NCBI GenBank assembly: GCA_017634595.1
Contig: JAGBNC010000016.1
Location: 124,001-188,000 of the forward strand
Direction of reading: 5' to 3'
Source: Bacteroidales bacterium
GTDB lineage: Bacteria > Bacteroidota > Bacteroidia > Bacteroidales > UBA932
DNA: 64,000 nt
Shown: in pieces, positions 14,248-46,823 of the stretch
Layout: each line of letters starts with the position of its first letter
Position numbering within the stretch: the stretch's first letter is position 1
Notes under the pieces: generated by a model
Databases searched by the model: none
Told to the model about the DNA's origin: nothing
The model's input: only the letters and a program-made list of their open reading frames with translations
Position numbers and translations under genes: made by a program

Positions 14248-14255
14248 TAATTTTG
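14248..14255 (+). promoter_or_regulatory. Putative -7 box for the DUF4434-MFS operon
   Basis: TAATTTTG matches TAnnTTTG and lies 27 bases before the chosen ATG at 14283. Its final G is the first base of the tandem operator, so a bound regulator would cover the transcription start. An in-frame ATG at 14244 lies within this promoter and is therefore an unlikely start. Confidence 0.6.
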
Positions 14256-14274
14256 TACCATAGTACACCAAAGT
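14255..14274 (+). promoter_or_regulatory. Tandem 10-bp operator, site 1
   Basis: Reads GTACCATAGT then ACACCAAAGT, two direct repeats with a 10-base period. The same element occurs at 24036-24055 (minus, two identical units ACACCACAGT) and 46797-46816 (minus, GCACCACAGC then ACACCACAGA). All three lie at or just after a -7 box. The shared consensus is RYACCAYAGY followed by ACACCAMAGW. The GntR-family regulator encoded at 26932-27957 is the obvious candidate to bind it (inference). Confidence 0.7.
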
Positions 14275-14282
14275 TGAAGTTT

Positions 14283-15365
14283 ATGGACGACAGAAGAAGT
14301 TTCCTGAAGAAAACGGCGGCAGCCGCTGCGGCAGTGATTGGCGGACCGGCACTGCTTCAGGCTTGCGGCCCCATGGAGGGCTCCGGGGCTGAAGAAGCAT
14401 CCGGCAGCAGGCTGATAGTTCCCAAAGGAGCGGGGCTTCGCATTACCGGCACCTTCCTGGATGAAATCTCCCATGATATTCCGCACCAGAACTGGGGCGA
14501 GAAAGAGTGGGATGCCGATTTTGCCTACATGAAAGCGATAGGCATTGACACCGTGATAGATATACGCTGCGGCTATCGCAAATTCATAACTTATCCCTCT
14601 CCGTATCTGCTCGGCAAGGGCTGCTACATGCCCTCGGTGGACCTGATCGACATGTTCTGCCGCCTGGCCCAGAAGTACGGCATGACTTTCATGCTTGGCC
14701 TGTATGACAGCGGTAAGTTCTGGGATACCAGGAATATGTCCTACGAAGTAGAGGCCAACCGTTTTGTCATCGACGAGGTATGGGAACGCTACGGGAGCCG
14801 CTACAGCAGCTTCGGAGGGTGGTACCTGAGCGGTGAGATAAGCCGCGCCAACCGCAGTGCAATAGAGTCTTTCCGCAAGCTCGGCAGGCAATGCAAGGAG
14901 GTTTCGGGCGGCCTTCCTACGTTTATTTCCCCTTATATCGACGGCAAGAAAGCGGTTAAGGCTGCCGGAAGCGCCCTTACCAAGGAAGAGGCGGTGAGCG
15001 TGGAGCAGCATGAGAGGGAGTGGAATGAGATATTCGACGGGATACACGATTTCGTGGATGCCTGCGCCTTCCAGGACGGCCACATCGATTATGACGAGCT
15101 GGACGCATTCTTCAGCGTCAACAAGAAACTCGCCGACCGCTACGGGATGCAGTGCTGGACCAATGCCGAGACATTCGACCGGGACATGCCCATCAAGTTC
15201 CTGCCTATCAAGTTCGACAAGCTCCGGCTCAAGCTGGAGGCGGCTGCGCGCTGCGGCTATGACAAGGCCATCACCTTTGAGTTTTCCCATTTCATGAGCC
15301 CCCAGTCGGCATATCTTCAGGCGGGTCATTTGTATGACAGATATAAAGAATACTTTGGAATATGA
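14283..15365 (+). CDS. Tat-exported lipoprotein with DUF4434-like TIM barrel
   Basis: 360 residues from ATG 14283, chosen because it gives a clean twin-arginine signal (DRRSFLKK, then a poly-Ala segment) followed by a lipobox (LLQAC), and because the earlier ATG lies inside the promoter. The mature part looks like a DUF4434-type barrel: ITGTFLDEISHDIPHQNWG, IDTVIDIRCGYRK, FMLGLYDSG, GGWYLSGEISR, AFQDGH and CWTNAETFD. The carboxylates in SGEISR and NAETF could be catalytic (inference). The family is predicted to be hydrolase-like, but its substrate is unknown. The stop overlaps the transporter start as ATGA. Tat export implies folding, perhaps with a cofactor, before secretion. Confidence 0.72.
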   Translation: MDDRRSFLKKTAAAAAAVIGGPALLQACGPMEGSGAEEASGSRLIVPKGAGLRITGTFLDEISHDIPHQNWGEKEWDADFAYMKAIGIDTVIDIRCGYRKFITYPSPYLLGKGCYMPSVDLIDMFCRLAQKYGMTFMLGLYDSGKFWDTRNMSYEVEANRFVIDEVWERYGSRYSSFGGWYLSGEISRANRSAIESFRKLGRQCKEVSGGLPTFISPYIDGKKAVKAAGSALTKEEAVSVEQHEREWNEIFDGIHDFVDACAFQDGHIDYDELDAFFSVNKKLADRYGMQCWTNAETFDRDMPIKFLPIKFDKLRLKLEAAARCGYDKAITFEFSHFMSPQSAYLQAGHLYDRYKEYFGI

Positions 15366-16747
15366 GCAGAAAAGTTAATATGGGATACGTGGTATTCCTG
15401 TGTGTGGTGGCCGCGTTGGGCGGTATATTGTTCGGGTACGACACTGCGGTAATATCCGGCACCACTGCGATTGTCAAGCAGCAGTTCGGCCTCTCCACGG
15501 GGCTCGAAGGCTGGTATGTAGGATGCGCCCTGATAGGCTCCATCATAGGCGTGGCGGTGGCCGGTATACTGTCCGACGGCCTTGGACGCAAGAAGACCAT
15601 GCTGATATCGGCCCTGATGTTCAGCATCTCCGCCATCGGCTGCGCAGTGTGTTCCGACTTTACCCAGCTCGTGCTGTTCCGTATAATCGGCGGCTTCGGT
15701 ATAGGCGTGGTGTCCATAGTTTCTCCTATCTATATTTCCGAAGTGGCGGTGCCGGAGAAAAGGGGTACGTTGGTATCGCTGTACCAGCTTGCCATTACTA
15801 TCGGATTTCTGCTGGCGTACCTGGTCAACTATCTCATTCTCAAGGGGGCGGAGCTCGATGCGGCAGATCCGTCGCTTGTTTCGCGCATGATGAACAATGA
15901 GTACTGGCGCGGTATGCTGGGGAGCGAAACGTTCCCCGACCTGCTGTTCCTGATAGTGATATTCTTCATTCCTGAAAGTCCGCGCTGGCTCATAGTTAAG
16001 GGACGCAGTGCTGATGCTACGCGTATCTTGGAGCGCATCTACGGCTCCCCCCAGGAGGCCGCAGCCCAGCTTGAATTGACACGCGCGTCCATAGCGGGAG
16101 AGGTGAAGTCGGAGTGGAAATCCCTTCTGGAACCTGGTATTTTCAAGGCTGTGCTGATAGGCTCCGCCATTGCCATACTTGGCCAGTTCATGGGAGTTAA
16201 CGCAGTGCTGTACTACGGGCCCAAGATATTCATGGACGCAGGATTGAGCGGAGAGGGGTCGCTGCTTTCCACTGTGCTCGTCGGTGTGGTGAACATGCTC
16301 ACCACTGTCATTGCGCTGCTCATTATCGACAAGGTGGGGCGCAAGAAGCTAGTGTGGTGGGGAGTCGGCGGCATGATTGCCTGCCTGCTGATGATAGGGC
16401 TCTATTTTGCCCTGGGCACGCTTCCTACCTGGTTCCTGCTGGTGTTCTTCCTGCTTTATGTGTTCTGCACAGCCATCTCCATCAGCGCAGTAGTGTTCGT
16501 GCTCCTGAGCGAGATGTACCCCAACCGCGTACGCGGCCTGGCCATGTCTGTGGCCGGCCTTGCGCTGTGGGTGGGCACTTACCTGATAGGCCAGCTCACT
16601 CCCTGGATGCTGGAGACGCTCACGCCGGCCGGTACCTTCTTCCTGTTTGCCTTCATGTGCCTTCCATATCTCTTCATCATGTGGAAATGGGTGCCTGAGA
16701 CCACTGGCAAGAGCCTGGAAGAGATTGAGGCATATTGGAAGAAATAG
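15362..16747 (+). CDS. Sugar porter family MFS transporter
   Basis: A 461-residue protein with twelve predicted spans and the sugar-porter signatures: GGILFGYDTAVISG in helix 1, GRKKTM after helix 2, IYISEVAVPEKRG, PESPRWLI before the central loop, GRKKLVWW after helix 8 and PETTGKSLEEIE at the C-terminus. It should import a monosaccharide with protons across the inner membrane. Its start overlaps the DUF4434-like gene stop (ATGA), so the pair is co-translated under the operator at 14255. Neighbouring enzymes point to GlcNAc, ManNAc or a hexose as cargo, but this family does not reveal the substrate by sequence. It ends four bases from the convergent GH89 gene. Confidence 0.9.
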   Translation: MSRKVNMGYVVFLCVVAALGGILFGYDTAVISGTTAIVKQQFGLSTGLEGWYVGCALIGSIIGVAVAGILSDGLGRKKTMLISALMFSISAIGCAVCSDFTQLVLFRIIGGFGIGVVSIVSPIYISEVAVPEKRGTLVSLYQLAITIGFLLAYLVNYLILKGAELDAADPSLVSRMMNNEYWRGMLGSETFPDLLFLIVIFFIPESPRWLIVKGRSADATRILERIYGSPQEAAAQLELTRASIAGEVKSEWKSLLEPGIFKAVLIGSAIAILGQFMGVNAVLYYGPKIFMDAGLSGEGSLLSTVLVGVVNMLTTVIALLIIDKVGRKKLVWWGVGGMIACLLMIGLYFALGTLPTWFLLVFFLLYVFCTAISISAVVFVLLSEMYPNRVRGLAMSVAGLALWVGTYLIGQLTPWMLETLTPAGTFFLFAFMCLPYLFIMWKWVPETTGKSLEEIEAYWKK

Positions 16748-16751
16748 CGGC

Positions 16752-19589: not shown

Positions 19590-19602
19590 GATGCTTCTAA
19601 TG

Positions 19603-19610: not shown

Positions 19611-19676
19611 ACAATAATTGTCCGAAGCGTGCCATCACGATTCGGCGGCCCGTCCGGAGCCAGGCACATAAATGCT

Positions 19677-19733: not shown

Positions 19734-21674
19734 TTAGTTAGCCGTCATCTTGAAGAGGCTTAGACCTACGTTTTGTTTGAGGCAAACCAGATAGACTCCG
19801 TCTTCTTTGACGCGGATGCAAAGATCCATTGCATTGTTGCCTGAACTGCGGACACTGGTATTATATTCTCCCTGATTCTCAGCATCTTCCTGGATAGCAG
19901 CATTGTACACTACCTTGTGATTTGTGATGATACTGCTCCATGCCTCTGTGGCATCTCCCTCCAGTATTATCAGGCGGCCGTCGTTGCCACCCACCTGGCG
20001 TGTGTATGCAACATAACGGTGTCCATTGTAGCTGAAGAACTGATAGGAGGGTACGCTTGTGTACCAGCCGCTTTCAATCACTTCGCAAACAGTGTTGGAA
20101 AGCTGGTTCCCGGTTGCACTCCACAGATTGGGTGCGCCTGCGGCAACTGATCCGTAAACAGATTTGACCTCATAGTTCCTTGCTCCCCAAATACCTGCGT
20201 CTTTATTCTCAGGGTATGTCCAGAATGCTCCGCCGGCAGAGCTTCCGTTGTCGAATCCATATCTCGACTGAACCGCCTGGTCCATACTTGGCAGGCTGCC
20301 CTTTGCCCAGCCGTTGGTCTTCCATATTCTTATGCCGTCACCGGAGAACATGGCGTCAAAATATATCATGCCCTTGCTAAGGCCTTGTCCGTCAGCGCTG
20401 TTGGTGGCACTGGCGCCCCAGAACGTGAATGTATCGCCAAGTCTTCCTGCGCCATTGATGAGTTTGATTGCCGTAGGCTCTTCCTCTATGCCGTTCTGAT
20501 ACACGTACAGATAAAGAGGGGAGCTCGACGCATCTTCTGTCATGTTGCATACGACCAGTACTGGCTCACCGCTAAGGTTCATAACCCTGGGGCAGGAGAG
20601 ATAGAAGGTGCCGGCATCCTTGACGGTGGAGGTGGGAAGCGCCTTGTAGAGGCTTCCGTCTTCTACTTTGAGAGCCCAAAGGTTCTTGGTCTTGTTTGCT
20701 TCTGCTATGTAGATGTATTCGTCGTCCATCGCTACATTGCGGTCAGAGTTGACAGCACCGCCGAAGTACTCATTCCATGAAGAATCTGCGGTGGAATACT
20801 TACCCCACAGGCGTTCTACTTTCAGAGCGGGCATCGACTTGAGTTCGCCCACCTTGCCGATAACGCCGCGCTTGACTTCCAGAGCTTTCTCGGAGACTAT
20901 TACAACGGGATCGCCGCTGGCGTGGTTGAGAGTGAAAGTTATGCCGCTTTCGAACTTGCATGGCAGGAGCACAGCGTAGTATGATTCACCCTTGACAAAT
21001 CCGCCTTCGGGAGCGCTTACTGTCACTTCTGTGGAACCCGAAAGAACGTTAGCGACAGTGGGAATCCACGCGTCACCGAATTCAACGACTACCCTTCCGG
21101 CAATAGCTTCGGATGCGTTGCCACGTATGACAACGGAGGTGACATTATCTTCGCCAATACTGAACTTTATGCCGCCGGCTACATTGAGGAATCTCATCGT
21201 AGTGGTATCAGATACGGCCACAGCGGGGAAGAGATTGCTCTCGAAAGTGCCGGCAACTGCAGTCTGTGCGCTGCGAAGCGTGAGACACACGCTACCGTCG
21301 GAGCCAACCTTGTTGTCCGATGATGAAGGGTATATACCGAAGTAGTGACGTGCCGCTGCGGGATACTCATCAAGCGAAGCGCTTCTTTCAAGATTGCCTT
21401 TGAAAGTAGCTGAAGCGGCCGGTTCGCTATTCTCTCCCACAAATTGTGCTCCGGTTTCACCGGGACCGTAGAAAAGGTCAATGGTCTCGGCGGCGCTCCA
21501 CCAGACGCTCTTGCCGTCCGGCTGAACCACGGTGCGGGTCGCTCCATCCTCGCGGGTGGCTGTAATGGTGATGTTGTCCTCCTGGACTGCCGGAACAATC
21601 TCTGCCTCCTTGTTGCAGGCTGCAAGAGCCAAAACTGCCAGCGCAAAAGCGCCGAATATATAAAGTTTCTTCAT
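19734..21674 (-). CDS. Surface lipoprotein: fimbrillin-like N-terminus plus SGBP-like C-terminal domain (paralogue A)
   Basis: About 646 residues from ATG 21674, chosen for its lipoprotein signal (lipobox ALAAC). Residues about 25-280 resemble the fimbrillin-like modules of Bacteroidales (ITATREDGATRTV, a SVWWSAAETIDLFY block, then HYFGIYPSS). Residues about 285-646 form a domain shared with the proteins at 21884 and 34251: STADSSWNEYFGG, DDEYIYIAEANKTKNLWAL, RLGDTFTFWG, RYVAYTRQVGGNDGRL and the end KQNVGLSLFKM. Its regular DEYIYI / YVAYTR strands suggest a beta-propeller-like fold (inference). A surface glycan-binding role is likely because the 34251 paralogue sits next to SusD. It follows a small-protein gene by 11 bases. 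Confidence 0.75.
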   Translation of the reverse strand: MKKLYIFGAFALAVLALAACNKEAEIVPAVQEDNITITATREDGATRTVVQPDGKSVWWSAAETIDLFYGPGETGAQFVGENSEPAASATFKGNLERSASLDEYPAAARHYFGIYPSSSDNKVGSDGSVCLTLRSAQTAVAGTFESNLFPAVAVSDTTTMRFLNVAGGIKFSIGEDNVTSVVIRGNASEAIAGRVVVEFGDAWIPTVANVLSGSTEVTVSAPEGGFVKGESYYAVLLPCKFESGITFTLNHASGDPVVIVSEKALEVKRGVIGKVGELKSMPALKVERLWGKYSTADSSWNEYFGGAVNSDRNVAMDDEYIYIAEANKTKNLWALKVEDGSLYKALPTSTVKDAGTFYLSCPRVMNLSGEPVLVVCNMTEDASSSPLYLYVYQNGIEEEPTAIKLINGAGRLGDTFTFWGASATNSADGQGLSKGMIYFDAMFSGDGIRIWKTNGWAKGSLPSMDQAVQSRYGFDNGSSAGGAFWTYPENKDAGIWGARNYEVKSVYGSVAAGAPNLWSATGNQLSNTVCEVIESGWYTSVPSYQFFSYNGHRYVAYTRQVGGNDGRLIILEGDATEAWSSIITNHKVVYNAAIQEDAENQGEYNTSVRSSGNNAMDLCIRVKEDGVYLVCLKQNVGLSLFKMTAN

Positions 21675-21685
21675 CTTGCGTCTGT

Positions 21686-21820
21686 TTAAAGGGTCCATTC
21701 TTCTTCCTCCAGACCCTCGAGTTCGCCATTGCTGGTGCTTTGGCAGATCAGGCCCGGAACATAGACATCAAACTCCGTCTGCGGAGCTTGATAGTTGAGT
21801 TTTGTGGAATAAAATTTCAT
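21686..21820 (-). CDS. Small protein of 44 residues preceding lipoprotein A
   Basis: ATG at 21820, TAA at 21686. The peptide starts MKFYSTKLNYQAPQTEFDVY and ends with an acidic tail (LEGLEEEEW). It resembles the very short Bacteroidales proteins with an N-terminal Y-x-x-P motif and an acidic C-terminus that precede fimbrillin-like or surface lipoprotein genes. Two others occur in this window (23864-24001 and 26796-26924), each directly 5' of a lipoprotein gene. There is no signal peptide, and the function is unknown. Confidence 0.65.
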   Translation of the reverse strand: MKFYSTKLNYQAPQTEFDVYVPGLICQSTSNGELEGLEEEEWTL

Positions 21821-21883: not shown

Positions 21884-23851
21884 TTATTCTGCATACATAC
21901 GGAACAATACAATTCCGACCTGTGTCCTGTTGAGTGCAATGTAGACTTCGTTACCTACCTGGAATACGGCACAATCGGCTCCTGATTTCCAAGTAGTGGC
22001 CATCCCTGCGGTGAAGGACTCGCGAACGACGGTTCCCTGGGTGTTGATAATGCTTGCCCAGTCGGCTGATGCATCACCTCTCTTGACAATCAGATCGAAT
22101 GCTTTGGTGTTGTCGGAGCGGTTGAGACACCAGATGACATATCGTTTCCCCATATACTGGAGGTAGTTGAAGCCATTACCGTTATTGTTCTCATAATTGC
22201 CCATCCAAGTTGTGAGCTTTTCAAGAGTTGCAGGATGTGCTCCTTCTTTTTTAATTGCTTCCTCAGTGGATGCGATTGTCATAAGCCTGTTGCGGTATGC
22301 TGTTCCGTCATCGTGATTTCCGCCTCTCCAACTGAACATACCTCTCGTAATCTCGCCAGGGAACGGATAGAAGGCGGCAAAATCAGTCAGATCAATGGCA
22401 AGCCTGCTGATCAAGCTTGCTGAATTTCCTTCAGTAGGAAGCTTGAAAGTTACAAAGCCGTTTCCTGTTTGTGTGCCGAATATGAGCCAGCAATCTTCAT
22501 AATTACCATATGTTGTGAAGGTGTCACCGAGTCGGCGTCCTGCACCCCACTGCTGTAGCGTGATTACTCTGGGGGCATTGTCAATACCGTTGTCCCACAC
22601 ATATAAACGGCCAGTAGAATTATTGCCCCCATCTTGGAAAAGGTTTGACGCAATCAAGACAGGGGAGCCATCATTCTTCTTGACTACACGTGCGCAGGAC
22701 AGATAAATGCTGCCATCAAAACCGGTTGATTCAACCGTCTCTGTGTTGACGAGTTTAACATTGGTTTTGTCATTGACATCAATGGCCCAAATATGCTTGG
22801 AGCCACCGAACTCGGTCACATATACATATTGTCCGTCCGTTGTGATGTTAAAATCACTTCCGGCAGCACAAGTCGCGCCACCAGCAGAAAGAGCAGATGT
22901 CCAGGCAGAGGATTCCGTGGAAAGCATTTCCCACACTTTATCAATCTTGATGTTAAATACATCTTCATCTTTAAAGGTAACTTTGACGGGAAGAATCTGA
23001 CCGGCGCCAAGTACGACCTCCTTAGGCATTGTGAGAGTCTTTTCGACGGTGCGTTTGTTGGTAACGATTGTAACGATAAGTTTGCTGTCCTGAGCAAAGG
23101 TCTGAGGGACTACACCGAAATATGCAGCCTGGCCTACGGTTGTCACTGCAAATGTGTCGGCCTCATAAATTGCGGTTACTTTTTTATAACCGGAATTTTG
23201 GTTGACGAGCCCTTCGGTGCCGGAAATCCTGAACCTGCCTACAAGATTGTTTTCTCCTTGTACGGCAACTGAGGTTGCATATTCTCCATTGAGTGCGGCT
23301 CCGGTGGTGCCATCAACGACAGTGAGTTTGATGAACGAGCCAAGGCGCTTGAATCTTACCACAGTGGGGTCCGTGCTGTAGGAGCCTTCCTCGCTGACCT
23401 CGAATGCTTCAGAAACCAGAAGGTCTGCCGCAGGGTCGAAGGATGTAAGAGAAGGATGCTGTTCATTGCTGACACGGACAGTAACGCCCTCCGCACTGGG
23501 AGCGTAGCTGGCGTTAGCTTCGTTGAAATAAGGGTAGTATGCGTAGTAAGTGCCAGCGGTCTTGACGGTTCCGGTGAAGGTCGCCCTATTCTCGGAGTCG
23601 ATGACTGCGTCGTCGGACTGGACGTTGACATTTGCTTCTCCATTGATGAAGCCGACCTTATCACCTGCGCTCCAAATGACATTTGTAGCACCGTCAAGCT
23701 GGGTCTTGGTGGCGGAAGCGTCGGCTACGATCGCTACTTTAATTCCGTCTGCATTGGGTGTTTCGATCTTTTCAATTTCCTTGGTGCAGGAAACAAAGGC
23801 GGATGCCGCAACTATTGCGGAAAGCGCAAAAATCTTTGTAATCTGTGTCAT
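21884..23851 (-). CDS. Surface lipoprotein: fimbrillin-like N-terminus plus SGBP-like C-terminal domain (paralogue C)
   Basis: About 655 residues from ATG 23851 with lipobox FVSC. The N-terminal ~290 residues are fimbrillin-like (VIWSAGDKVGFI, YYAYYPYFNEA, a VRFKRLGSFIKL strand). The C-terminal ~350 residues match paralogues A and B: LSTESSAWT, YVYVTEFGGSKHIWAIDV, IYLSCARV, GRRLGDTFTTYG and the end RTQVGIVLFRM. It is the first large gene behind the operator-bearing promoter at 24036-24070, with a small-protein gene between. A cell-surface ligand-binding role is inferred from the shared domain and from co-regulation with a SusCD operon. Confidence 0.75.
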   Translation of the reverse strand: MTQITKIFALSAIVAASAFVSCTKEIEKIETPNADGIKVAIVADASATKTQLDGATNVIWSAGDKVGFINGEANVNVQSDDAVIDSENRATFTGTVKTAGTYYAYYPYFNEANASYAPSAEGVTVRVSNEQHPSLTSFDPAADLLVSEAFEVSEEGSYSTDPTVVRFKRLGSFIKLTVVDGTTGAALNGEYATSVAVQGENNLVGRFRISGTEGLVNQNSGYKKVTAIYEADTFAVTTVGQAAYFGVVPQTFAQDSKLIVTIVTNKRTVEKTLTMPKEVVLGAGQILPVKVTFKDEDVFNIKIDKVWEMLSTESSAWTSALSAGGATCAAGSDFNITTDGQYVYVTEFGGSKHIWAIDVNDKTNVKLVNTETVESTGFDGSIYLSCARVVKKNDGSPVLIASNLFQDGGNNSTGRLYVWDNGIDNAPRVITLQQWGAGRRLGDTFTTYGNYEDCWLIFGTQTGNGFVTFKLPTEGNSASLISRLAIDLTDFAAFYPFPGEITRGMFSWRGGNHDDGTAYRNRLMTIASTEEAIKKEGAHPATLEKLTTWMGNYENNNGNGFNYLQYMGKRYVIWCLNRSDNTKAFDLIVKRGDASADWASIINTQGTVVRESFTAGMATTWKSGADCAVFQVGNEVYIALNRTQVGIVLFRMYAE

Positions 23852-23863
23852 AGCCAAAAGGAA

Positions 23864-24001
23864 TTAGAAAGAAAGTTCATCAAGCTCGTCGAGCTCTTTT
23901 CCGGCCTTGCCGGGATCACCGAATGAACCGCTGAGGATAGCGGATGAAAACCGCACCAGCCTTATGGTAAGGTCAGGGGTTTGATAATAACTTTTTGCCA
24001 T
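23864..24001 (-). CDS. Small protein of 45 residues preceding lipoprotein C
   Basis: ATG at 24001, TAA at 23864. The peptide starts MAKSYYQTPDLTIRLVRFSS and ends GKELDELDELSF. It shows the Y-Y-Q-x-P-D-L start and acidic end of the same tiny-protein type as those at 21686 and 26796. It is the first gene after the operator promoter, and the lipoprotein ATG follows 12 bases after its stop. It is likely a genuine leader gene of the operon; its function is unknown. Confidence 0.65.
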   Translation of the reverse strand: MAKSYYQTPDLTIRLVRFSSAILSGSFGDPGKAGKELDELDELSF

Positions 24002-24035
24002 TGTATTAATTAATCTAGTTGTTTGCAATTTGTTA

Positions 24036-24055
24036 ACTGTGGTGTACTGTGGTGT
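24036..24055 (-). promoter_or_regulatory. Tandem 10-bp operator, site 2 (perfect repeat)
   Basis: On the minus strand this is two identical units of ACACCACAGT. It lies 7 bases downstream of the -7 box at 24063-24070, covering the expected start of transcription. It is the clearest of the three operator copies. Confidence 0.75.
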
Positions 24056-24062: not shown

Positions 24063-24070
24063 CAAAGTTA
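24063..24070 (-). promoter_or_regulatory. -7 box of the fimbrillin-like lipoprotein operon
   Basis: Minus strand TAACTTTG matches TAnnTTTG. A TTG lies 20 bases upstream, giving the full Bacteroidota -33/-7 layout. The leader to the small-protein ATG at 24001 is about 55 bases and AT-rich. Confidence 0.65.
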
Positions 24071-26809: not shown

Positions 26810-26924
26810 ACACAAGTGGATCGTCATAAGGTTCGCCTGTTGCGCTGGCGGCGATCACCGACCAGCATATCAATTCGCAGATGCTAAGATCTGGGGCTTT
26901 ATAAGAAGCCGGAGCAGAAATCAT
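26796..26924 (-). CDS. Small protein of 42 residues preceding the phosphodiester glycosidase gene
   Basis: ATG at 26924, 7 bases after the GntR gene stop; TAG at 26796, inside the start of the next gene. It reads MISAPASYKAPDLSICELIC, then a hydrophobic-to-acidic tail (GEPYDDPLVYDGF). The Y-K-A-P-D-L start parallels YQTPDL and YQAPQT in the two other small proteins. The 14-base overlap with the lipoprotein gene suggests translational coupling. Function unknown. Confidence 0.6.
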   Translation of the reverse strand: MISAPASYKAPDLSICELICWSVIAASATGEPYDDPLVYDGF

Positions 26925-36254: not shown

Positions 36255-36273
36255 AATCATGCGCGTTTTGCGG

Positions 36274-38316: not shown

Positions 38317-41300
38317 TTAGAAGTTTAGATTGAGTCCGAGGCTGACGTTGCGAGTCAGCGGATAGACATTGCCGTATGCTGATTCAAGCTCGGGGTCCCA
38401 GAGCTTGAACGCTGAGAATGTAAGGAGGTTGACTCCCTGCAGGTACACGCGTACTGTAGAGATGCCGGCCTTCTTGGTGAGGGTCTTCGGCAGGGTGTAG
38501 CCGAGTTCTGCGTTCTTCAGACGCAGGAAACTCATGTCTTTCTGCCAGAATGTGGATGCAATCTGGTTGTTGGCAGGCACTTCCACCGAGAAGCGGGGGT
38601 AAGGTGCATCAGACCGGTGGGTGACGGACCAGCTGCGCTCGGCCACGTCGGCGAATATCTGGCCCTGGATGAGCACGTTGGTGGCCGCGCCGCCGTAGAG
38701 GTTGTAGCCTCCGATGATGCGTGTCACGTGAGCCATGCCGCTGAAGAATACGCTGGCGTCGAAGCCTTTCCAGCCCAGGCTGAGGCCGAAGCCGTAGTTG
38801 ATTTCAGGTATTGACGTGTAGCCGATGGCCACCTTGTCGAAGTCGTTCACTATTCCGTCGCCGTTGATGTCGCGGTACTTGATGTCGCCGGGCACCAGTG
38901 TGCGTCCGTACTGGCTATGCCAAGAGTCTATCTCGTCCTGGTCCATGAACAGGCCTTCGGCAATGAGTCCGCGCTGCTGGTTATTGGCAAAGCCGGCAGT
39001 GTTCTGGTACTTCCATACCTGGTCGGGCTTGTCGTCGTATACCCTGCGGTTGCGGTTGAATGTGTAGTTGCCGCGCGCTGACAGCGAGAGGCCGTTGTCG
39101 AACAGCCAGTCGAACTGTCCCGACAGGTCGAAGCCCTGGTTAAGCATCTCGCCAATATTGGTGTACTGGGTCTTACGCAGGCCCACGGCGCTTGGAAGGC
39201 TTTTTCTTTCAATGAAGATGCCGCTGCGGTAGTCGTTGAAGTAGTCGAACTGGAACTTGAGGTGGTCCCTGAAAAGGTTGAGTTCCACACCCACGTTGCG
39301 CTTGAGGGCTTCTTCCCATACGATATCGGGATTGCCTATCTCACCCGTTGCAACGCCGGTCACGTACGAAGGCTGCTTCTCGCCCCAGGAGAATCCGCCG
39401 ATTCCGGTGATGTCCATGGTGGTGTTGTAGCCGAAACGGCGTCCGCCGCCTATCTGGTCGTTGCCGACCTTACCGATTGATGCTTTGAACTTCAGCAGGC
39501 TGATGGTGTTCTTGATGGGCTCCCAGAAGTTCTCGTTGGATACAATCCATCCGAGGGCCGCGGAAGGGAAGAATCCGAAGCGGTGCCCCGGCGAGAAGTT
39601 CTCGCTTCCGTTGTAACCGAAGTTGAACTCGGCAAAGTAACGGTCGAGGTAACTGTAGGTCGCCCTGCCGGCCACGCCCATGCTCTTGCGCGGGAATGTC
39701 TCCCAGTATTCGAATCCCGGGTGCGTGTTCTCGCGGTTGCGTATGTAGTATAGGAACATGGCGCTTACCCTGTGGGCGCTGCCGAACGTGCGTTCATAAT
39801 TGGCTGATGCCTCAAGATTGAGGATGGTATAGCCGCTCTGGTTGGACGAGCTTACGTTGATGTAGCCGGCAGTATTGTTCTGAGGCACATACACATAGTC
39901 CTTGGCTTCGTCGTCCCAGGCCTTGTAGTACACCCTCGGAAGTATTCCGTTGGTGACCGAAGATGCAGTGCGTGCATCCCAAGAAAGCTGGACCTTGGCG
40001 GTAAGGCCCTCGGTGATGATCTCCGAGAAGTCCTGCGTCAGGGCTACGGTGGACTGTGCATTCTGGGTGTCGATGGTGGCGTAACCCATGTTGTTGATCA
40101 TGTTGTACGGGTTGGAGCCGACCTCGGGATTGGACAGGGTGCCGTCGGAGAACACTTTAGGGAAGCCGATGGGCGTGATCTGCATCACGTAGTTGTAGAT
40201 GTTTGACAAGGCGGTACCGGGCTGGTTCTTCTTGGTGAACTGGGTGCTGAGGTCCATTCCCAGAGTAGTGGACGGGGTGATGTTGATGTCCACGTTGGTG
40301 CGGAAGTTGAACCTGCTGTAGTTCATCTGGGAATTGTAGCGGTCGTTGCGCTCCACGTTGAAGATACCGTCCTCGAAGTAATACGAGCCGCCGGCATAGT
40401 AGCGAATGTTCTTCGTACCTCCGGTCACGTTGACGTTGGCCTTGGTGGTCATGGCCTGCTCCTTGAATATCTCATGGATCCAGTCCACGTTGGGATACAG
40501 GTCAGGATCTTCGCCCGACAGGTACATGCGGCGGGCGTAGTCATCGATGGTGCCGGGCTGCATGGTGTTGAGGTAATCGATGAACTGCTCTGCGCTGGCC
40601 ATTTTGGGAAGCTGCGTGGGCGAAGTGATGCCGGATTCAAACTTCACGCACACCTTAGGCTTGGATTCGGCGCCTCGCTTGGTGGTGATGAGCACTATGC
40701 CGTTGGCTCCGCGTACGCCGTAGAGCGCCGTAGCCGTGGCGTCTTTAAGGATAGAGAAGGAGGCAATGTCTTCCACATCCACGAGGTCCATCGAGCGTTC
40801 CACGCCGTCCACGAGAATGAGCGGCGTAGCATTGGCTCCGAAGGTGTTGACACCGCGAATCCAGAATTCGGCGCTTGATCCGGGCTCGCCTGTATGCTGC
40901 ACGGCCACGACGCCTGCCAGTTTGCCTGCAAGTCCGGTGGAGAGCTGGCCGATTGGAGCCTGGAGCTGGCCTGCGTCTATGGTAGTGATGGATCCTATGA
41001 CGGAAGCTTTTTTCTGGGTTCCATAAGCCACCTTTACAACTCCTTCAAGTTCGTTTGCTTGGGGTACAAGCTTGATAATCAGCTCTTTCTGATCTGTTAC
41101 TGTAATCTCTTCGTCGGCATAGCCAAGGAAGGATACTACAAGCACCTCTCCGCTTTTGGCTTTGATAGTGAAGCGGCCGTCCAGGTCGGTCATTGCGCCG
41201 CCTGTTCCGCCCTTGTGCTGGACGTAAGCCCCCGGAACTCCAAGGTCTGTCTCGTCCAGTACAACACCGCTGATTTCCCTGGTCTGGCCGGATGCGGGAA

Positions 41301-41364
41301 TGTTTATCCCCATGCCAATCAGGGCTATAAGAGCGGCAGTGCCTAGTCGTTTGAGAATTGTCAT
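38317..41364 (-). CDS. susC: SusC/RagA-family TonB-dependent outer-membrane transporter
   Basis: 1015 residues with an export signal (AALIALIGMGINIPASGQ). The order is a carboxypeptidase-D-like domain (ISGVVLDETDLGVPGAYVQ, GRFTIKAKSGEVLVVSFLGY), a plug (VAYGTQKKASVIGSI, GEPGSSAEFWIRGVNTFG, LILVDGVERS, SILKDATATALYGVRGANGI) and a beta-barrel ending in NVSLGLNLNF with a terminal Phe. It imports oligosaccharide into the periplasm using TonB energy. It lies six bases after the ROK kinase gene, so transport and catabolism are transcribed together. Confidence 0.95.
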   Translation of the reverse strand: MTILKRLGTAALIALIGMGINIPASGQTREISGVVLDETDLGVPGAYVQHKGGTGGAMTDLDGRFTIKAKSGEVLVVSFLGYADEEITVTDQKELIIKLVPQANELEGVVKVAYGTQKKASVIGSITTIDAGQLQAPIGQLSTGLAGKLAGVVAVQHTGEPGSSAEFWIRGVNTFGANATPLILVDGVERSMDLVDVEDIASFSILKDATATALYGVRGANGIVLITTKRGAESKPKVCVKFESGITSPTQLPKMASAEQFIDYLNTMQPGTIDDYARRMYLSGEDPDLYPNVDWIHEIFKEQAMTTKANVNVTGGTKNIRYYAGGSYYFEDGIFNVERNDRYNSQMNYSRFNFRTNVDINITPSTTLGMDLSTQFTKKNQPGTALSNIYNYVMQITPIGFPKVFSDGTLSNPEVGSNPYNMINNMGYATIDTQNAQSTVALTQDFSEIITEGLTAKVQLSWDARTASSVTNGILPRVYYKAWDDEAKDYVYVPQNNTAGYINVSSSNQSGYTILNLEASANYERTFGSAHRVSAMFLYYIRNRENTHPGFEYWETFPRKSMGVAGRATYSYLDRYFAEFNFGYNGSENFSPGHRFGFFPSAALGWIVSNENFWEPIKNTISLLKFKASIGKVGNDQIGGGRRFGYNTTMDITGIGGFSWGEKQPSYVTGVATGEIGNPDIVWEEALKRNVGVELNLFRDHLKFQFDYFNDYRSGIFIERKSLPSAVGLRKTQYTNIGEMLNQGFDLSGQFDWLFDNGLSLSARGNYTFNRNRRVYDDKPDQVWKYQNTAGFANNQQRGLIAEGLFMDQDEIDSWHSQYGRTLVPGDIKYRDINGDGIVNDFDKVAIGYTSIPEINYGFGLSLGWKGFDASVFFSGMAHVTRIIGGYNLYGGAATNVLIQGQIFADVAERSWSVTHRSDAPYPRFSVEVPANNQIASTFWQKDMSFLRLKNAELGYTLPKTLTKKAGISTVRVYLQGVNLLTFSAFKLWDPELESAYGNVYPLTRNVSLGLNLNF

Positions 41365-41369
41365 ATTAT

Positions 41370-42179
41370 TTAGTTTGTGATGGTGTTTTTCTGAAATAAA
41401 CTGAGCAGGCCTTCGTAAACGGCCCCTTGAGGTGCCGCTTCCATGCGCAGGCCGGGAAGCTTTGCTTTCAGCGGCTCTTCGAACAGGCTCATGGATTTGG
41501 AAATCTGTCCGCCGAACAATATAGTGTCGAGCTTGAGCTCGGCGCAGACTTGACCCAGGACTTCGCCGAGGCAGCGCCCCATGCCTGTAAATGTATTGCG
41601 GGCCAAGATGTCGCCATCCTGTGCTCTTTGGGCTATTTCTCTGGCACTAAGGGAGTTGTTTCCTCCGAGGCGGCCGTAAGCCAGCCTTATGCCCCTGGCC
41701 GAGACTATGTCTTCCGCTATTCCTTCTCCGTAAGGCTTGTCCCACAAGCTCACGGCAGGAGATCCGTTCGGGCCAAACTGCACCTTGCCCTTGATGGCGG
41801 CGGAGAAGCCCAGCCCAGTGCCGAGAGTGACCAGCGCTGTATTGTGCTCCTGAAGCCCGAGCATCTGCACAGCCCCCAGCAGGGGAGCATTTACGTCGTG
41901 CATGAATTTGAGTTGTGTGCAATCTGCTATTCCGGCAAGCTCCCGGAAACTCTTGCCGTACACCGATGCGAATTTGTGGCGCATCAAGAATATGCCATGC
42001 TCGTAGTCGAACGGCCCCGGTATGGCCACGCCTATGGCCTCAGCTTCACCAGCGGTGGCTTGGCGCAGGGCGCCGGCAATCTCTTCCGCACTCCCTGCCG
42101 AAGGCATGGGGATGCAGAGACCGTCGGAGCGTTTGATAAATGTGCCTCCGATGTCAAGCAGGATCATTCTCGAATCCAT
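41370..42179 (-). CDS. ROK-family sugar kinase
   Basis: 269 residues with the ROK ATP-binding motif LDIGGTFIK near the N-terminus, GVAIPGPFDYEHG, the catalytic-Asp region FMHDVNAPLLG, and ALVTLGTGLGFSAAIKG. The C-x-C-x-G-C zinc motif usual in ROK kinases is absent, and the HxxGH-type block is not clear, so it is a divergent member. It probably phosphorylates the hexose or ketose produced by the adjacent isomerase (inference). It overlaps the phosphomannose-isomerase-like gene by 26 bases. Confidence 0.8.
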   Translation of the reverse strand: MDSRMILLDIGGTFIKRSDGLCIPMPSAGSAEEIAGALRQATAGEAEAIGVAIPGPFDYEHGIFLMRHKFASVYGKSFRELAGIADCTQLKFMHDVNAPLLGAVQMLGLQEHNTALVTLGTGLGFSAAIKGKVQFGPNGSPAVSLWDKPYGEGIAEDIVSARGIRLAYGRLGGNNSLSAREIAQRAQDGDILARNTFTGMGRCLGEVLGQVCAELKLDTILFGGQISKSMSLFEEPLKAKLPGLRMEAAPQGAVYEGLLSLFQKNTITN

Positions 42180-44025
42180 CTCTCAGACATGTCTTGTGTA
42201 TGCGTATCGGCTCTTTGCCGAGGTTTTCAATCACATATTTGCCCATCGATGCGGGGACGCATGCAATCTCCATGAAGTCAAGGTCGAAGAAGCGCTCGGG
42301 ATGCTCTGCGCTGCGGATGCGCACGTGGTCGCCGTCCACCAGGGTCAGCACGTGGAACTTCTCGCCCTTGGTGTCCTGTTCGCAATGCTGGTCGAATTCC
42401 AGACGACGTAGCGAGATGTACATCTGCGGGTTCTCGCCCAGTATGAATTCTTTCCACCCTTCGCCCTCGCAGTCAAGACGTGGCTGCTGCACTATGTAAT
42501 CTTTGCTCTGCGGGTCGTGTATTACCGAGGTGCGGCGCTCCTGGTTGACGTTGAGCTCTCCGAGATGAGTGTGGATGGGCCTCTGCTTGCCGTCGAAGTC
42601 GAGCCTGAGGTAGTCGTACATCTTGTAAGTATAGGAGCCTATCGTCAGCGAACCTATCTCCAGAATTACCTGGTTGCGGCCGCTGGAATGGATGGTCCCG
42701 GCGGGAAGCATCACCTGCAGGCCCGGCCTGGACTCCTCATAGCTCACATACTTCATGTAGTCGCAGGGCTTGTGCTCCGTGTCCGCCGCTTCTATTTCCT
42801 TGAAGAAAGCGGGGATGTCGGCGTCGTCGCGGAAGCCTATAAAGGTCTTGGCCTCATGACCGGTGATCACTACGTAGTAGCTCTCGTCCTGACGCCCGAA
42901 CTCATTGTAATTCTCAACGTTGAACTTGCCTCCGGAGTGGCACTGAATGCTCATGTTGCCGGTGGAGTGGTAGGAGTCGTCCCAGTTGAAGCGTATGGGG
43001 AAATAGCCCTTGTACTTGCGCACACATTTGTCGCCCATAAGGCTCACGCCTTCTTTATGGACGAACGAGCAGTAGTTGATGTCCAGCTTCTCGCTGCCCG
43101 CTTCGACCAGCACGCTGACCTCCATCGGGATGAAATCGAATACCCATGCGGCGTTGCGCATCTTCTCCGGCAGATGGCGCTTCTCTTTCATGTAGGAGCC
43201 GCCCCATACGCCTTCCAGATAGCAGGGCTTGGCCCTGAACGGATACTTAACCAGCTGGGCGCAGATGTCGCTGAACGCGCTGAAAGGCATCATTTGCAGA
43301 TTGGCCCTGTCGTTGTCGAGGAAGTACCAGTCGAGTGCGTTCCCTGCGAAGAGTTCCTTTCGGAGTTGCACTGCATTCTCAAAGTCGCAGTAGTAGCAGC
43401 GCCTGATGGTGCGGTTGATGATGCCCGTGTGCTTTTTGCCAAGGTTGGCATATTCTCCGGCCCTGATACGGAGCATGGAGTTCATGGGGGTTATGTCAAA
43501 CCAGCACTTCACATCGTACAGGCTGCGGAATGCTTCTGCAAGGCAGCCGTATCCGTACACCACGACTATGCGTCCGGCGGCTTTGTGAGTGGAAAGTTCT
43601 TTCCGGAATGCTTCCGCCTTTGCTTCATCTGTGAGACCTGCGTAACCTCCGTGGTAAACCTTGCCGTAGAGCAGCGTGGGGTCTATTTTGGTGTCCCAGA
43701 TGAGCAGAGGGTCGATGATGGCGTCTATCTCCGCTCCGCTCTTGAGCGTGGCTGAGTTGAAGTCCAAGGTCTCGAGCTGCAGGCCGAGCAGGTCGCACTC
43801 TCTTGACATAAGGTTGATCAAGAGGTCCCATTTGGCGGTGGTGTAACCGTCCAAGGCGACTATCACGCCGTCCTTGCGGGCCGCTTGTGAGAGCGAGGCG
43901 ACGAACTTTTTGGCTACGTTGGGCGTGCCGGCGCCAACTATTGATTTTACTGTCCCTTCCGAGAGCTCAGGCCTGTTCACGGGCTTGGGGTCGTGATAAG
44001 GGAAGGGGTTGTACATGAAGCTCAT
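42154..44025 (-). CDS. Type I phosphomannose-isomerase-like protein with degenerate kinase-like N-terminal domain
   Basis: 623 residues in two parts. Residues about 30-235 resemble a uridine-kinase-like P-loop domain, but the loop (DGYTTAKW, residues 59-66) lacks the GxxGxGKS/T motif, so kinase activity is doubtful. Residues about 260-620 are a cupin fold with the type I phosphomannose isomerase set: SIQCHSGG (Gln361, His363), DESYYVV (Glu381) and LPAGTIHSSG (His446). It would interconvert an aldose- and a ketose-phosphate, classically mannose-6-P and fructose-6-P. Context (isomerase, ROK kinase, MFS) places it in cytoplasmic catabolism of the imported sugar. Confidence 0.72.
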   Translation of the reverse strand: MSFMYNPFPYHDPKPVNRPELSEGTVKSIVGAGTPNVAKKFVASLSQAARKDGVIVALDGYTTAKWDLLINLMSRECDLLGLQLETLDFNSATLKSGAEIDAIIDPLLIWDTKIDPTLLYGKVYHGGYAGLTDEAKAEAFRKELSTHKAAGRIVVVYGYGCLAEAFRSLYDVKCWFDITPMNSMLRIRAGEYANLGKKHTGIINRTIRRCYYCDFENAVQLRKELFAGNALDWYFLDNDRANLQMMPFSAFSDICAQLVKYPFRAKPCYLEGVWGGSYMKEKRHLPEKMRNAAWVFDFIPMEVSVLVEAGSEKLDINYCSFVHKEGVSLMGDKCVRKYKGYFPIRFNWDDSYHSTGNMSIQCHSGGKFNVENYNEFGRQDESYYVVITGHEAKTFIGFRDDADIPAFFKEIEAADTEHKPCDYMKYVSYEESRPGLQVMLPAGTIHSSGRNQVILEIGSLTIGSYTYKMYDYLRLDFDGKQRPIHTHLGELNVNQERRTSVIHDPQSKDYIVQQPRLDCEGEGWKEFILGENPQMYISLRRLEFDQHCEQDTKGEKFHVLTLVDGDHVRIRSAEHPERFFDLDFMEIACVPASMGKYVIENLGKEPIRIHKTCLRDGFENDPA

Positions 44026-44032
44026 AACTTAT

Positions 44033-45472
44033 CTATCTAATGTCGTAAAATTCAAATCCCATGATTTCGGCAAATGCCTTCAGCTGCGGCCTGCAGTCGC
44101 CATCGACAACTGCGAAATGCTGCGTCGTTCCTATGTTCAGTACTTTCTCGAACAGTTCCTTCACAGGGACCACCGGTTTGAAGATGGTATGTGTGTAGGT
44201 AGCGAGAATCTGGGTGCCGGGCAGGCTCTCCGCCTGGAATGTGACAAGCTTGTAGCGGCCGTCTTCTTCGAATATTCCGGCCACGGTCTTCATGCCGGGG
44301 CTTATGCGGTACCATGCGAACGGGGCTCCGGCGTACTTCCAGCTGGTCTTGGCAAAGCGTACGTCGCGGGCTATTACCACGTTCTGCTGCCAGGCAGGGT
44401 CGTTGTGGTCGTTGGGACCGGCGTGGCCTCCTGCGAAGGTGCCGAAGTCGTCTTCGATGTGGAAAGGTTCGATGAAGTTGACATGCTTGCCTGTGAGGAG
44501 CTTGAGGACGTAAGTGGCCAGGCCTGCGCCTATGTCGGCCTCGGGCACCAGGACGCTCACATTGTCGTTGAACCACTGCGGATAGAATCCGGCGCGGCAT
44601 CCTGCCGTACGGAAAGTGGCCTGGTCAATGTCGTTGTACACGAAGCAGTCGATGTCGTTCTTCTGGGCCATCTTCTTAATGGCGAGTGATGCCTTGACGC
44701 AGCCTATGAACTTGTCGTACTCTACGTCTTCCATCATGCGGTACTTGGAGGTGAGCTCATCTGCGTAAGCCTTCACTTCTTCGTCGCTAAGGGCGTCTAT
44801 CTCAGCACCGTAGTCGCTGTATGGCAGGTAATGTATCTCCGGCCCGATCTTGTTGAACAGGTCGTAGTTGTCAATGTAGGTGCTCCACATTGCCTCGTTC
44901 ATGTTTGCCATAAGTCCAACGTTTGAATTACGCAGTATGGCGCGTGCCCGGGCGGCTTCGGAATATACCTTTAGCTTCTCGGTAATCTGCTCCCTTGTGC
45001 CCATGACGGTGAGGACATTGTGCCTTGGCACTCTCTTTATGCTTCCGGAGGCTTCCAGCGAGCCGACCAGCGTCCCTGCACACAGGTAGTCGATGAAATC
45101 GTCCTCGTCGATCGAGGTCTCGAAACTCATCCTGGACTTGGCTACATTGCAGAATATGATGGGGATGTCGGGGCAGTCGCGGAGGAACCTTATCCACGCG
45201 AAATCTTCGCTCCATGACAGGAACTCGGCGTAGATGAAATCTACTTTGGAGTTATAGAACAGGTCCATTGCGCGCTTGGCGTCTTCTTTCTCATAGATTA
45301 TTCCCGGATCGGTTATGTCAAGGAATCCAAGCGTGCCTTTGATTTCCTCCACTGCTTTGAGCTTGCGCTCATGGTATGTTCCTCTCTTCGGTCCGCTCAA
45401 ATTCTTGAACCGTGGTGAAGCTATGAGCAGGAGACCCGCCCGAGCTTTCCGTTGTTTATCTGTTGCTTTCAT
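44033..45472 (-). CDS. L-fucose/L-arabinose isomerase-like protein
   Basis: 479 residues, cytoplasmic. It has the fold signature of fucose/arabinose isomerases: an N-terminal domain with FLDITDPGIIYEKEDAKRA and VDFIYAEFLSWSED, a middle domain (VGLMANMNEAMW, YDKFIGCVKASLAIKKMA, DIDCFVYNDIDQATF) and a C-terminal domain (EPFHIEDDFGTFAGGHAGP, RDVRFAKTSWKYAGAPFAWYRISPGMK). Metal-binding candidates are in DVEYDKF and HIEDDF. Members interconvert aldoses and ketoses; the exact sugar is not deducible. Its ATG shares one base with the MFS stop (TAATG). Confidence 0.75.
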   Translation of the reverse strand: MKATDKQRKARAGLLLIASPRFKNLSGPKRGTYHERKLKAVEEIKGTLGFLDITDPGIIYEKEDAKRAMDLFYNSKVDFIYAEFLSWSEDFAWIRFLRDCPDIPIIFCNVAKSRMSFETSIDEDDFIDYLCAGTLVGSLEASGSIKRVPRHNVLTVMGTREQITEKLKVYSEAARARAILRNSNVGLMANMNEAMWSTYIDNYDLFNKIGPEIHYLPYSDYGAEIDALSDEEVKAYADELTSKYRMMEDVEYDKFIGCVKASLAIKKMAQKNDIDCFVYNDIDQATFRTAGCRAGFYPQWFNDNVSVLVPEADIGAGLATYVLKLLTGKHVNFIEPFHIEDDFGTFAGGHAGPNDHNDPAWQQNVVIARDVRFAKTSWKYAGAPFAWYRISPGMKTVAGIFEEDGRYKLVTFQAESLPGTQILATYTHTIFKPVVPVKELFEKVLNIGTTQHFAVVDGDCRPQLKAFAEIMGFEFYDIR

Positions 45473-46797
45473 TATTTGTTGTAGATTTTTGAATAATCTT
45501 TGTTGTAGTGCTTATAGCTTACCCAGAGACATGCTATCCCGCATATCAGCCATATGGCGCCGAGTATGGGGAAGGTGGCGTTGAGGCTGCCCGTGGCTTC
45601 CTTGATGAGGGCGAGGATGTAGGGAGCGGTGGCTCCGACAGCGAATCCGGTCATGATCATGGCGCTTGAGCAGGATGCGTGCAGGTGTTCGGGGGTCACA
45701 TCGTATAGGGCTGCGTAGATGTTGGCGTCGAAGAATGCCCTGAAAAAGCCCCATCCGGCAAAGCACAAGTACAAGATCCAGAGGCTCCCGGCGCTGCCCA
45801 TGAAGGGAAGGAATATGGCTCCGAGTATCAGTCCGGCTCCCTGGATCACCATCCTGAGGCGTGGACTCCGGGCTGCCCATTTGTCGGAGAGCGAACCAGC
45901 CAGAAGCACTCCGGCGAATGCTGCTACGTATGTCCAGAGCATTGAATTGAGGCCGGCCTGGGCACCTGTCTGCCCGAAGTTCTCTTGAAGGAAGGTGGGG
46001 ACCCAGGTCATGTAGCCGGTGATTACGAAGATGAACCCGCAGAAGCCTATGGTGACCATGAGGGCTGTGGGAGTGGTAAATACTGTCTTGAATCCGTCGA
46101 GCAGGCCTGGCTTCCCTTGGGCAGGAGCCTGCCCTTGGACGGCCCCGAGGCGACTTTGGCCCTTACGAACAGGAGCCCCGGGGCCGCCCGAGGACTGGTC
46201 CTGCCCCTCTGCAGCTGCGGCCGGTGCATCCTTGAGCCGCAGTGCCATGACCAGCGCCCATATTACGCCGGCGCCGCCGAAGATATAGAAGGCGTACTGC
46301 CACCCCAGATGGTCTCCGATGTAGCCGGCAAGCCATCCTGCAAGGATGACACCCACATAATATGATGTCTGGTGTATGGACATGGCGCGGGCCCTCGTGT
46401 CGGTGTGGTACTGGCCCAGCAGGGAGTAGTTGGCCGGCCCGAAGAACGCCTCTCCGCCGCCTGTGGCCACCGACCTGGTAAGTATCAGCATGAACACACC
46501 GTTTGCCAGACCGGTAAACATGGTGGCTATGCTCCAGAACAATATGCTCAAGGTGGTTACCCATTTACGGCTGAAGCGGTCTCCGACCCACCCTCCGATG
46601 GGTACCATCAGCGCGTAGAAGAGGTTGAAAAACACTGCTATAAGGCTGATGGAGGTGTCCGTGAGCGAGAGGCTGTCACGTATGAGGGGCAGGACGGAAT
46701 TGAACACCTGACGGTCTCCTTGGTTGAGCAGATAAGCTACCCATAGGAGAGCCAGGACTTCCCACTTGTAATACTTTGAAAAACGTTTCATTTTCAT
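45472..46797 (-). CDS. MFS transporter (ACS/hexuronate-type), first gene of the large operon
   Basis: About 441 residues from ATG 46797 (a second in-frame ATG is at 46791). Twelve spans are predicted. Features: GDRQVFNSVLPLIRDSL in helix 1, GGWVGDRFSRKW in the 2-3 loop, GGGEAFFGPANYSLLGQYH, and a long Gly/Pro/Gln-rich central loop (about residues 200-230) unusual for the group. It imports a monosaccharide or sugar acid across the inner membrane. The 5' leader is very short because the tandem operator and -7 box abut the start codon, so repressor binding would block initiation of the whole operon. Confidence 0.85.
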   Translation of the reverse strand: MKMKRFSKYYKWEVLALLWVAYLLNQGDRQVFNSVLPLIRDSLSLTDTSISLIAVFFNLFYALMVPIGGWVGDRFSRKWVTTLSILFWSIATMFTGLANGVFMLILTRSVATGGGEAFFGPANYSLLGQYHTDTRARAMSIHQTSYYVGVILAGWLAGYIGDHLGWQYAFYIFGGAGVIWALVMALRLKDAPAAAAEGQDQSSGGPGAPVRKGQSRLGAVQGQAPAQGKPGLLDGFKTVFTTPTALMVTIGFCGFIFVITGYMTWVPTFLQENFGQTGAQAGLNSMLWTYVAAFAGVLLAGSLSDKWAARSPRLRMVIQGAGLILGAIFLPFMGSAGSLWILYLCFAGWGFFRAFFDANIYAALYDVTPEHLHASCSSAMIMTGFAVGATAPYILALIKEATGSLNATFPILGAIWLICGIACLWVSYKHYNKDYSKIYNK

Positions 46798-46816
46798 CTG
46801 TGGTGTGCTGTGGTGC
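46797..46816 (-). promoter_or_regulatory. Tandem 10-bp operator, site 3
   Basis: Minus strand GCACCACAGC then ACACCACAGA. Its first G is the last base of the -7 box at 46816-46823 (TAATTTTG), the same placement as at 14255. The opposite-strand promoter for the mutarotase-like gene has its -7 box 31 bases away. Confidence 0.72.
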
Positions 46817-46823
46817 AAAATTA
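46816..46823 (-). promoter_or_regulatory. -7 box of the ten-gene operon
   Basis: TAATTTTG on the minus strand, matching TAnnTTTG, directly joined to the tandem operator and about 19 bases from the MFS ATG. No clear -33 TTG is visible in the AT-rich upstream sequence. Confidence 0.6.

Follow-up and report, generated by a model that had tools for sequence, protein, structure and literature searches.

The window analysed here is a 64,000-nucleotide stretch of a Bacteroidales genome (positions 124001-188000 of contig C13, in an assembly of 36 contigs and 2,593,413 bases). Three promoters within it, one of them in front of the operon of a polysaccharide utilization locus (PUL), carry the same 20-bp element of two direct 10-bp units, which we consider a candidate operator for a regulator of GntR–LacI type encoded in the same window (its gene is called gntR below). 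The sequence-only reading had claimed three such sites, each with a TAnnTTTG box at or just before it. Direct reading of the letters bore out the sequences and coordinates of the sites, and the box was found at all three:

14248..14255, plus strand: TAnnTTTG -7 box of promoter 1, TAATTTTG
14255..14274, plus strand: operator 1, direct 10-bp units GTACCATAGT/ACACCAAAGT, the weakest of the three
24036..24055, minus strand: operator 2, two identical units ACACCACAGT
24063..24070, minus strand: TAnnTTTG -7 box of promoter 2, TAACTTTG
46797..46816, minus strand: operator 3, units GCACCACAGC and ACACCACAGA
46816..46823, minus strand: TAnnTTTG -7 box of promoter 3, TAATTTTG

At operators 1 and 3, unit 1 begins with the G of the TTTG. 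At operator 2, box and unit 1 are separated by seven bases, and promoter 2 has a TTTG at 24094-24091, 20 bp upstream of its -7 box. Operator 1 departs from the pattern CACCANAGNNCACCANAG by one mismatch, its cores being ACCATA and ACCAAA compared to the usual ACCACA. The final base of operator 3 is the A of an in-frame ATG.

When the 2.59-Mb genome was searched with CACCANAGNNCACCANAG at up to one mismatch, the three sites were the sole matches, all within 33 kb, and the reversed-pattern control gave none. The genome scan thus returned no further site of equal quality, and the earlier claim of a local regulon held at this stringency, with one site type at several promoters of one locus and none elsewhere. 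Relaxing the search to two mismatches yielded 13 matches in the genome compared to 9 for the reversed control, so that matches weaker than one mismatch are roughly at chance level; a three-mismatch search of the window alone gave 5 matches compared to 6.0 expected, which is not significant. The three sites are special in the genome and not the product of chance, with the signal residing in the matches at zero or one mismatch. A lone unit at 60550 was set aside; it lies inside a stretch (60271-61179) matched as a LytB protein.

The genes behind the three operators are as follows:

14283..15365, plus strand: DUF4434 protein (PF14488), first gene behind operator 1
15362..16747, plus strand: major facilitator superfamily (MFS) sugar transporter (PF00083), overlapping the DUF4434 gene
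23864-24028: short open reading frame separating operator 2 from the lipoprotein-like gene, with 54 codons if counted from a TTG or 45 from the ATG nearest operator 2
21884..23857, minus strand: lipoprotein-like gene behind operator 2, called fimbrillin-like in the sequence-only reading; no Pfam family
19734..21698, minus strand: second gene on the same strand, its product 27% identical to the 21884 product over the matched stretch
45472..46785, minus strand: MFS transporter, the leading gene of the operon that follows operator 3
44033..45472, minus strand: protein weakly like L-arabinose isomerase (NCBIfam E 1.2e-5, far under the model cutoff; Pfam below cutoff)
42154..44025, minus strand: unnamed protein with no Pfam match above cutoff, with a weak likeness of residues 262-486 to 1qwr, a mannose-6-phosphate isomerase (E 2.5e-4)
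41370..42179, minus strand: ROK-family protein, probable sugar kinase
38317..41364, minus strand: SusC-type TonB-dependent receptor
36274..38304, minus strand: SusD-type protein
34251..36260, minus strand: protein with a BT_3987-like N-terminal domain
32665..34251, minus strand: DUF4855 protein
29492..32668, minus strand: DUF4855/DUF6259 protein
27984..29495, minus strand: GH20 glycosidase
26932..27957, minus strand: gntR (PF00392 and PF13377), eleventh in the packed series that follows operator 3

The operon behind operator 3 had been described as a ten-gene PUL operon; the operon stands, but the count becomes eleven close-packed genes with gntR (26932-27957), after which the next gene on the strand starts about 100 bp further. 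Since gntR is the eleventh packed gene behind site 3, the regulator should repress its own synthesis, a predicted autoregulation. Elsewhere in the window, a single protein encoded at 16752-19589 combines all three domains of NAGLU (alpha-N-acetylglucosaminidase) with a C-terminal endonuclease/exonuclease/phosphatase domain, and a gene for an NAGPA-type phosphodiester glycosidase lies at 24389-26827. Together, the NAGLU fusion and the NAGPA-type gene hint at a phosphodiester glycan with N-acetylglucosamine (GlcNAc) as the substrate. Given also the ROK and GH20 proteins and the weak isomerase likenesses in the operon, a reasonable guess for the inducer, and no more than that, would be an amino sugar or a related compound derived from a GlcNAc-bearing glycan.

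The N-terminus of the regulator, a protein of 341 residues, is a GntR winged helix (PF00392, E 2.7e-13), and its C-terminus is a LacI-type periplasmic-binding sensor (PF13377, 28.6 bits, cutoff 26.5). A profile built from the window protein and 37 relatives matched AraR structures in both parts (DNA-binding domain 4egy, 3.4e-10; sensor 3tb6, 3.3e-4), and the window protein alone matched the AraR DNA-binding domain 4egy at E 8.4e-5. For the DNA-binding part, the best NCBIfam score was to MocR-type PdxR, at 63.9 bits far under the model cutoff of 320. The aminotransferase-like C-terminal domain that marks MocR proteins was not found in the regulator (Pfam, E 0.001). From the targets and the sensor domain, we infer that the regulator is a repressor released by a sugar.

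We examined the recurrence of the tandem in 400 genomes of the genus, starting with a subset of 151; both sets include the window's own genome. The first search of the 151 genomes revealed recurrent CACCACAG pairs, often adjoining gntR. At up to one mismatch, 54 of the 151 genomes had a match, but the reversed control had many matches too, and a stricter pattern was therefore adopted. This pattern, exact YACCACAGNRYACCACAS, was designed from sites in the first 151 genomes and misses site 1 of the window. It found 116 sites in 68 of the 400 genomes, compared to 1 site for the reversed control, which confirms that the tandem is conserved beyond the window's genome.

The regulator, called as present at E <=1e-70, was detected in 103 of the 400 genomes. 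It occurred in 64 of the 68 genomes with a site compared to 39 of the remaining 332; counted the other way, 64 genomes had both, 4 only the site, 39 only the regulator and 293 neither. Among the 249 genomes outside the pattern design, the regulator was present in 41 of the 43 with a site and in 65 overall. The association is strong in both sets (Fisher p 1.5e-41 for the 400 genomes and 1.8e-27 for the 249), with both p values inflated by kinship, as the test treats genomes as independent. Position points the same way as co-occurrence: gntR is on the same contig as 79 of the 116 sites, at a distance of no more than 25 kb for 77 of these and no more than 300 bp for 21. Taken together, these observations support the earlier proposal that the single GntR/LacI-type regulator of the region is the candidate for reading the sites.

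The genes behind the genus sites were counted in 40 regions (L075-L114), a biased sample since the regions were chosen for holding sites or gntR. The commonest target was the orthologue of the window's first PUL-operon gene, the MFS transporter, preceded by the tandem in 15 of the 40 regions; the gntR orthologue followed in 5 and the NAGLU orthologue in 3. Only one region (L114) had the tandem before an intact DUF4434 orthologue and one (L076) before a shortened copy. Both of these sites have two mismatches to the strict pattern, and the DUF4434 site of the window is likewise the weakest of its three. In L076, the tandem and the shortened gene lie at 4413-5000, and the copy matches in pieces (residues 1-11, 40-80 and 244-357).

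A conservation profile was built from 50 distinct sites (duplicates removed, up to one mismatch to a pattern, plus site 1). TTTG stood directly before 30 of them, 5-8 bases before 10 and 10-11 bases before 2, and the full TAnnTTTG was present at 38 of these 42. Information content was 1.5-2.0 bits in the cores, a value raised by the search pattern itself, which fixes the cores; it was 0.8-1.1 bits at the unit boundaries, the junction included, and dropped past the second unit. Some sites departed from the common form. In L103, the diverged operator CATCACAGTACATCACAG had both units changed alike, and in L099, L100 and L104, the two units were unlike each other. At the gntR promoters of L087 and L091, the TATCTTTG box comes after the site, not before it. 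In L101, a pair of tandem operators lies at 18749-18808, one on each strand and 42 bp apart; each follows its own TATATTTG box, and the two promoters face each other.

Homologues of the regulator in other families of the order, 28-36% identical to it, had other units in the same layout, for example CCTACCAGTACCAACCAGT (L133), CATAACAGTACATAACAGT (L120, downstream side) and CAGCACAGAACAGCACAGA (L140). A motif-free test was applied to the 250 bp upstream of gntR; it scored a region at a given period if two 9-mers that far apart agreed in 8/9 positions or more. Among 29 order homologues, two of which (L115 and L116) are 49% identical to the window regulator, period 10 was found in 9, other periods in 0-1 and the coding control in 0. 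At the phylum level, we used the best 80 of at least 589 confirmed candidates and dropped L206, which starts near an edge. The remaining 79 loci are almost all from Bacteroidota (Prolixibacteraceae, Flavobacteriaceae and others); L171 is labelled Chlorobiota and L221 Rhizobium, both being metagenome bins. Period 10 was found in 35 of the 79 loci compared to 0-2 at the other periods from 6 to 20 (periods 21 and 22 are taken up below). The controls for period 10 gave 0/79 in coding sequence and 0/76 far upstream, and 40 Markov shuffles of the set gave a mean of 1.05 loci with a largest value of 4. The tandem had been put forward as the mark of one local regulon; this stands for the three local sites but is too narrow, as the same period recurs at homologous regulators elsewhere.

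Among 184 upstream regions of other genes from the same loci, 15 matched at period 10 compared to 0-9 at other periods. Twelve of the 15 are the same ACCAGT-type tandem before a neighbouring gene; we read these as further targets, so this control is not a clean one. In five phylum loci examined, the neighbour of gntR was galactokinase (L145, L166 and L172) or GalT, galactose-1-phosphate uridylyltransferase (L152 and L156), and ACCAGT-type tandems were clear before these gal genes in four of the five and less clear in L172. This gal-linked branch probably represents a galactose regulator that occurs widely across Bacteroidota. Upstream of gntR in L128, L139 and L141, an inverted ACTGG..CCAGT arrangement, seemingly of the same half-site, replaces the tandem or is mixed with it.

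Several observations weigh against the reading of the tandem as the operator of this regulator, in addition to the kinship among genomes mentioned above. In the genus, 37 of the 116 sites are on contigs without gntR, and 4 of the 68 site genomes have no detected regulator; three of these (G128, G207 and G336) are 57-76% complete, and the fourth (G017) is 95% complete with its site 4.3 kb from a contig end. Conversely, 39 of the 103 regulator genomes lack the strict pattern. Of 14 such genomes inspected, one (G051) had a one-mismatch site and 11 had a two-mismatch tandem behind TTTG; in the other two (L097 and L107), no tandem was found. No TTTG lies within 12 bases of 8 of the 50 distinct sites. 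Upstream of gntR, 44 of the 79 phylum loci and 20 of the 29 order loci fell short of the 8/9 threshold, direct repeats also scored at periods 21 (5/79) and 22 (10/79), and inverted repeats were in slight excess at centre distances 16-19 (3-6/79 compared to 1 in coding and 0-4 in far-upstream sequence).

We considered whether another regulator of a direct-repeat type (AraC-type including hybrid two-component systems (HTCS), SusR-like or DeoR-type) reads the sites, with GntR a mere neighbour. Direct-repeat motifs have been predicted for HTCS and SusR-like regulators of B. thetaiotaomicron (PMC3878776). For the DeoR-family RhaR, the predicted sites are imperfect direct repeats whose 10-11 bp periodicity matches the period seen here (PMC3870299). 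The HTCS repeats, however, average 21 bp and the SusR repeats lie 67 or 77 bp apart in that account (PMC3878776), compared to 10 bp here. In the genome, the DeoR-type domain (PF08220) had a single match, on contig C6, and none in the window, and the AraC-type domain (PF12833) had 18 matches with none in the window, the sole one on the same contig (C13:30038) being about 108 kb from site 1. GntR itself is present in 64 of the 68 site genomes, in a co-occurrence computed for GntR only, with 21 sites within 300 bp of its gene, and period-10 tandems adjoin the genes of distant GntR–LacI homologues. We therefore regard a different regulator as unlikely.

The second alternative, a degenerate palindrome centred on the GTAC junction with the repetition accidental, would make the operator a conventional GntR site. 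The junction does resemble the GT..AC core found in GntR consensus sites, and among the 50 sites it shows partial conservation (T 72%, A 78%, C 80%); the homologues L128 and L141 have inverted ACTGGT..ACCAGT elements, and inverted repeats upstream of gntR slightly exceed the controls at the centre distances of 16-19. Yet no inverted spacing comes near the direct period of 10 (35/79), the top inverted count being 9 at distance 5, where coding sequence gave 14. A junction palindrome would also leave the repetition of two full units unexplained. The conservation profile alone cannot decide this question, as the pattern fixes the cores. On balance, the palindrome appears very improbable.

We give slightly less weight still to the view that the repeats act in RNA, as the 5' end of a transcript to which a protein or small RNA binds. 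Since most sites follow closely on a -7 box, they are near or within the leader. At the gntR promoters of L087 and L091, however, the TATCTTTG box lies downstream of the site, which places the site outside the transcript made from it and speaks for action on DNA. At site 3, moreover, the repeat abuts the start codon and unit 1 would fall at or before the start; the linked protein carries a DNA-binding domain. Chance was rejected, since the three sites are the sole genome matches at up to one mismatch and the genus has 116 sites compared to 1 control match.

We are thus fairly confident that the three sites represent one operator type, 20 bp long with two head-to-tail 10-bp units, that would be read by the GntR–LacI regulator (26932-27957) in the following manner. 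Each site would accept one dimer, whose two winged helices would contact a unit apiece, spaced by one turn of the DNA and facing the same way. For this, one of the two DNA-binding domains would have to be rotated with respect to the dyad of the LacI-type sensor dimer. Sitting over or next to the -7 box and the start site, the regulator would block the access of RNA polymerase. A sugar that stems from the PUL substrate may bind the sensor domain and release the repressor. Release would co-induce glycan capture (SusCD and lipoproteins), uptake through the two MFS carriers and sugar processing, along with the repressor.

With less assurance, we lean towards a broader proposal, that Bacteroidota GntR–LacI hybrids as a class read one-turn (10-bp) head-to-tail operators in which the unit sequence varies and the period and tandem order are fixed. 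If true, this would amount to a phylum-wide regulatory code over PULs and, judging by the neighbouring galK and galT, the galactose pathway, and a symmetric sensor dimer would carry two DNA-binding domains in parallel orientation. For many sugar regulators of Bacteroidota, the operator has yet to be assigned; in B. thetaiotaomicron, for example, predicted motifs cover 16 of the 36 HTCS (PMC3878776). The fixed layout, two like 10-bp units near TAnnTTTG and next to a GntR–LacI gene, would make regulons recognisable from sequence, including those of uncultured species. For this PUL, it names the probable switch, a repressor whose gene lies inside the operon it would control. The system also lends itself to testing how a repressor dimer that is presumably symmetric recognises a site without symmetry.

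Direct-repeat operators had been called unusual for GntR proteins. Unusual they are, but precedents exist in the MocR subfamily and in NagQ, FarR and NanR (PMC4494728 and PMC5320631). MocR regulators often use direct repeats, which has been attributed to head-to-tail dimers (PMC5320631), and the MocR-type PdxR, GabR and TauR place a GntR winged helix on direct repeats, as would be the case here. MocR proteins have an aminotransferase-like domain, whereas the regulator here has a LacI-type sensor instead; it would therefore work like MocR in its use of direct repeats but is no MocR member by its domains. NagQ, FarR and NanR, listed as direct-repeat exceptions under the FadR and HutC subfamilies, share the direct repeats but have other units (TGGTATT, TGTATTAWTT and TGGTATAW; PMC4494728).

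Among sugar regulators, the DeoR-family RhaR has a sugar regulon whose predicted operators consist of two imperfect direct repeats with 10-11 bp periodicity (PMC3870299), but it belongs to a different protein family. The HTCS and SusR sites predicted for Bacteroides PULs are also direct repeats, but of other protein families and with a spacing of ~21 or 67/77 bp rather than one turn (PMC3878776). Closer in protein family, AusR of the flavobacterium Zobellia galactanivorans is a GntR-family repressor that controls an alginate PUL and that oligosaccharides release as effectors (PMC8286568). FucR (BT1272) and ManR (BT2103) of Bacteroides thetaiotaomicron are likewise sugar regulators of the GntR family from Bacteroidota (PMC3878776).

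A literature search with the letters of the repeat gave no related title among the matches listed. In the open literature searched, with subscription papers and supplements outside its scope, we found no description of an AraR-like architecture with 10-bp tandem operators in Bacteroidota, and an earlier report is possible. AraR of Bacillus subtilis resembles the regulator in overall plan, with the same GntR and LacI/GalR-type domains and with sugar-catabolic targets. By the title of their 2013 work, Jain and Nair reportedly found that spacing sets the relative orientation of AraR monomers, which is a possible precedent for the turned domain. AraR boxes are described as palindromic (PMC4218819), in contrast to the direct 10-bp tandem here; judged by its candidate sites, the regulator thus shares the AraR architecture but is not classed as AraR, lacking the AraR-type palindromic operator. 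The comparison suggests that what is new is a one-turn direct-repeat operator for a known AraR-like architecture, a finding of moderate novelty and broad reach.

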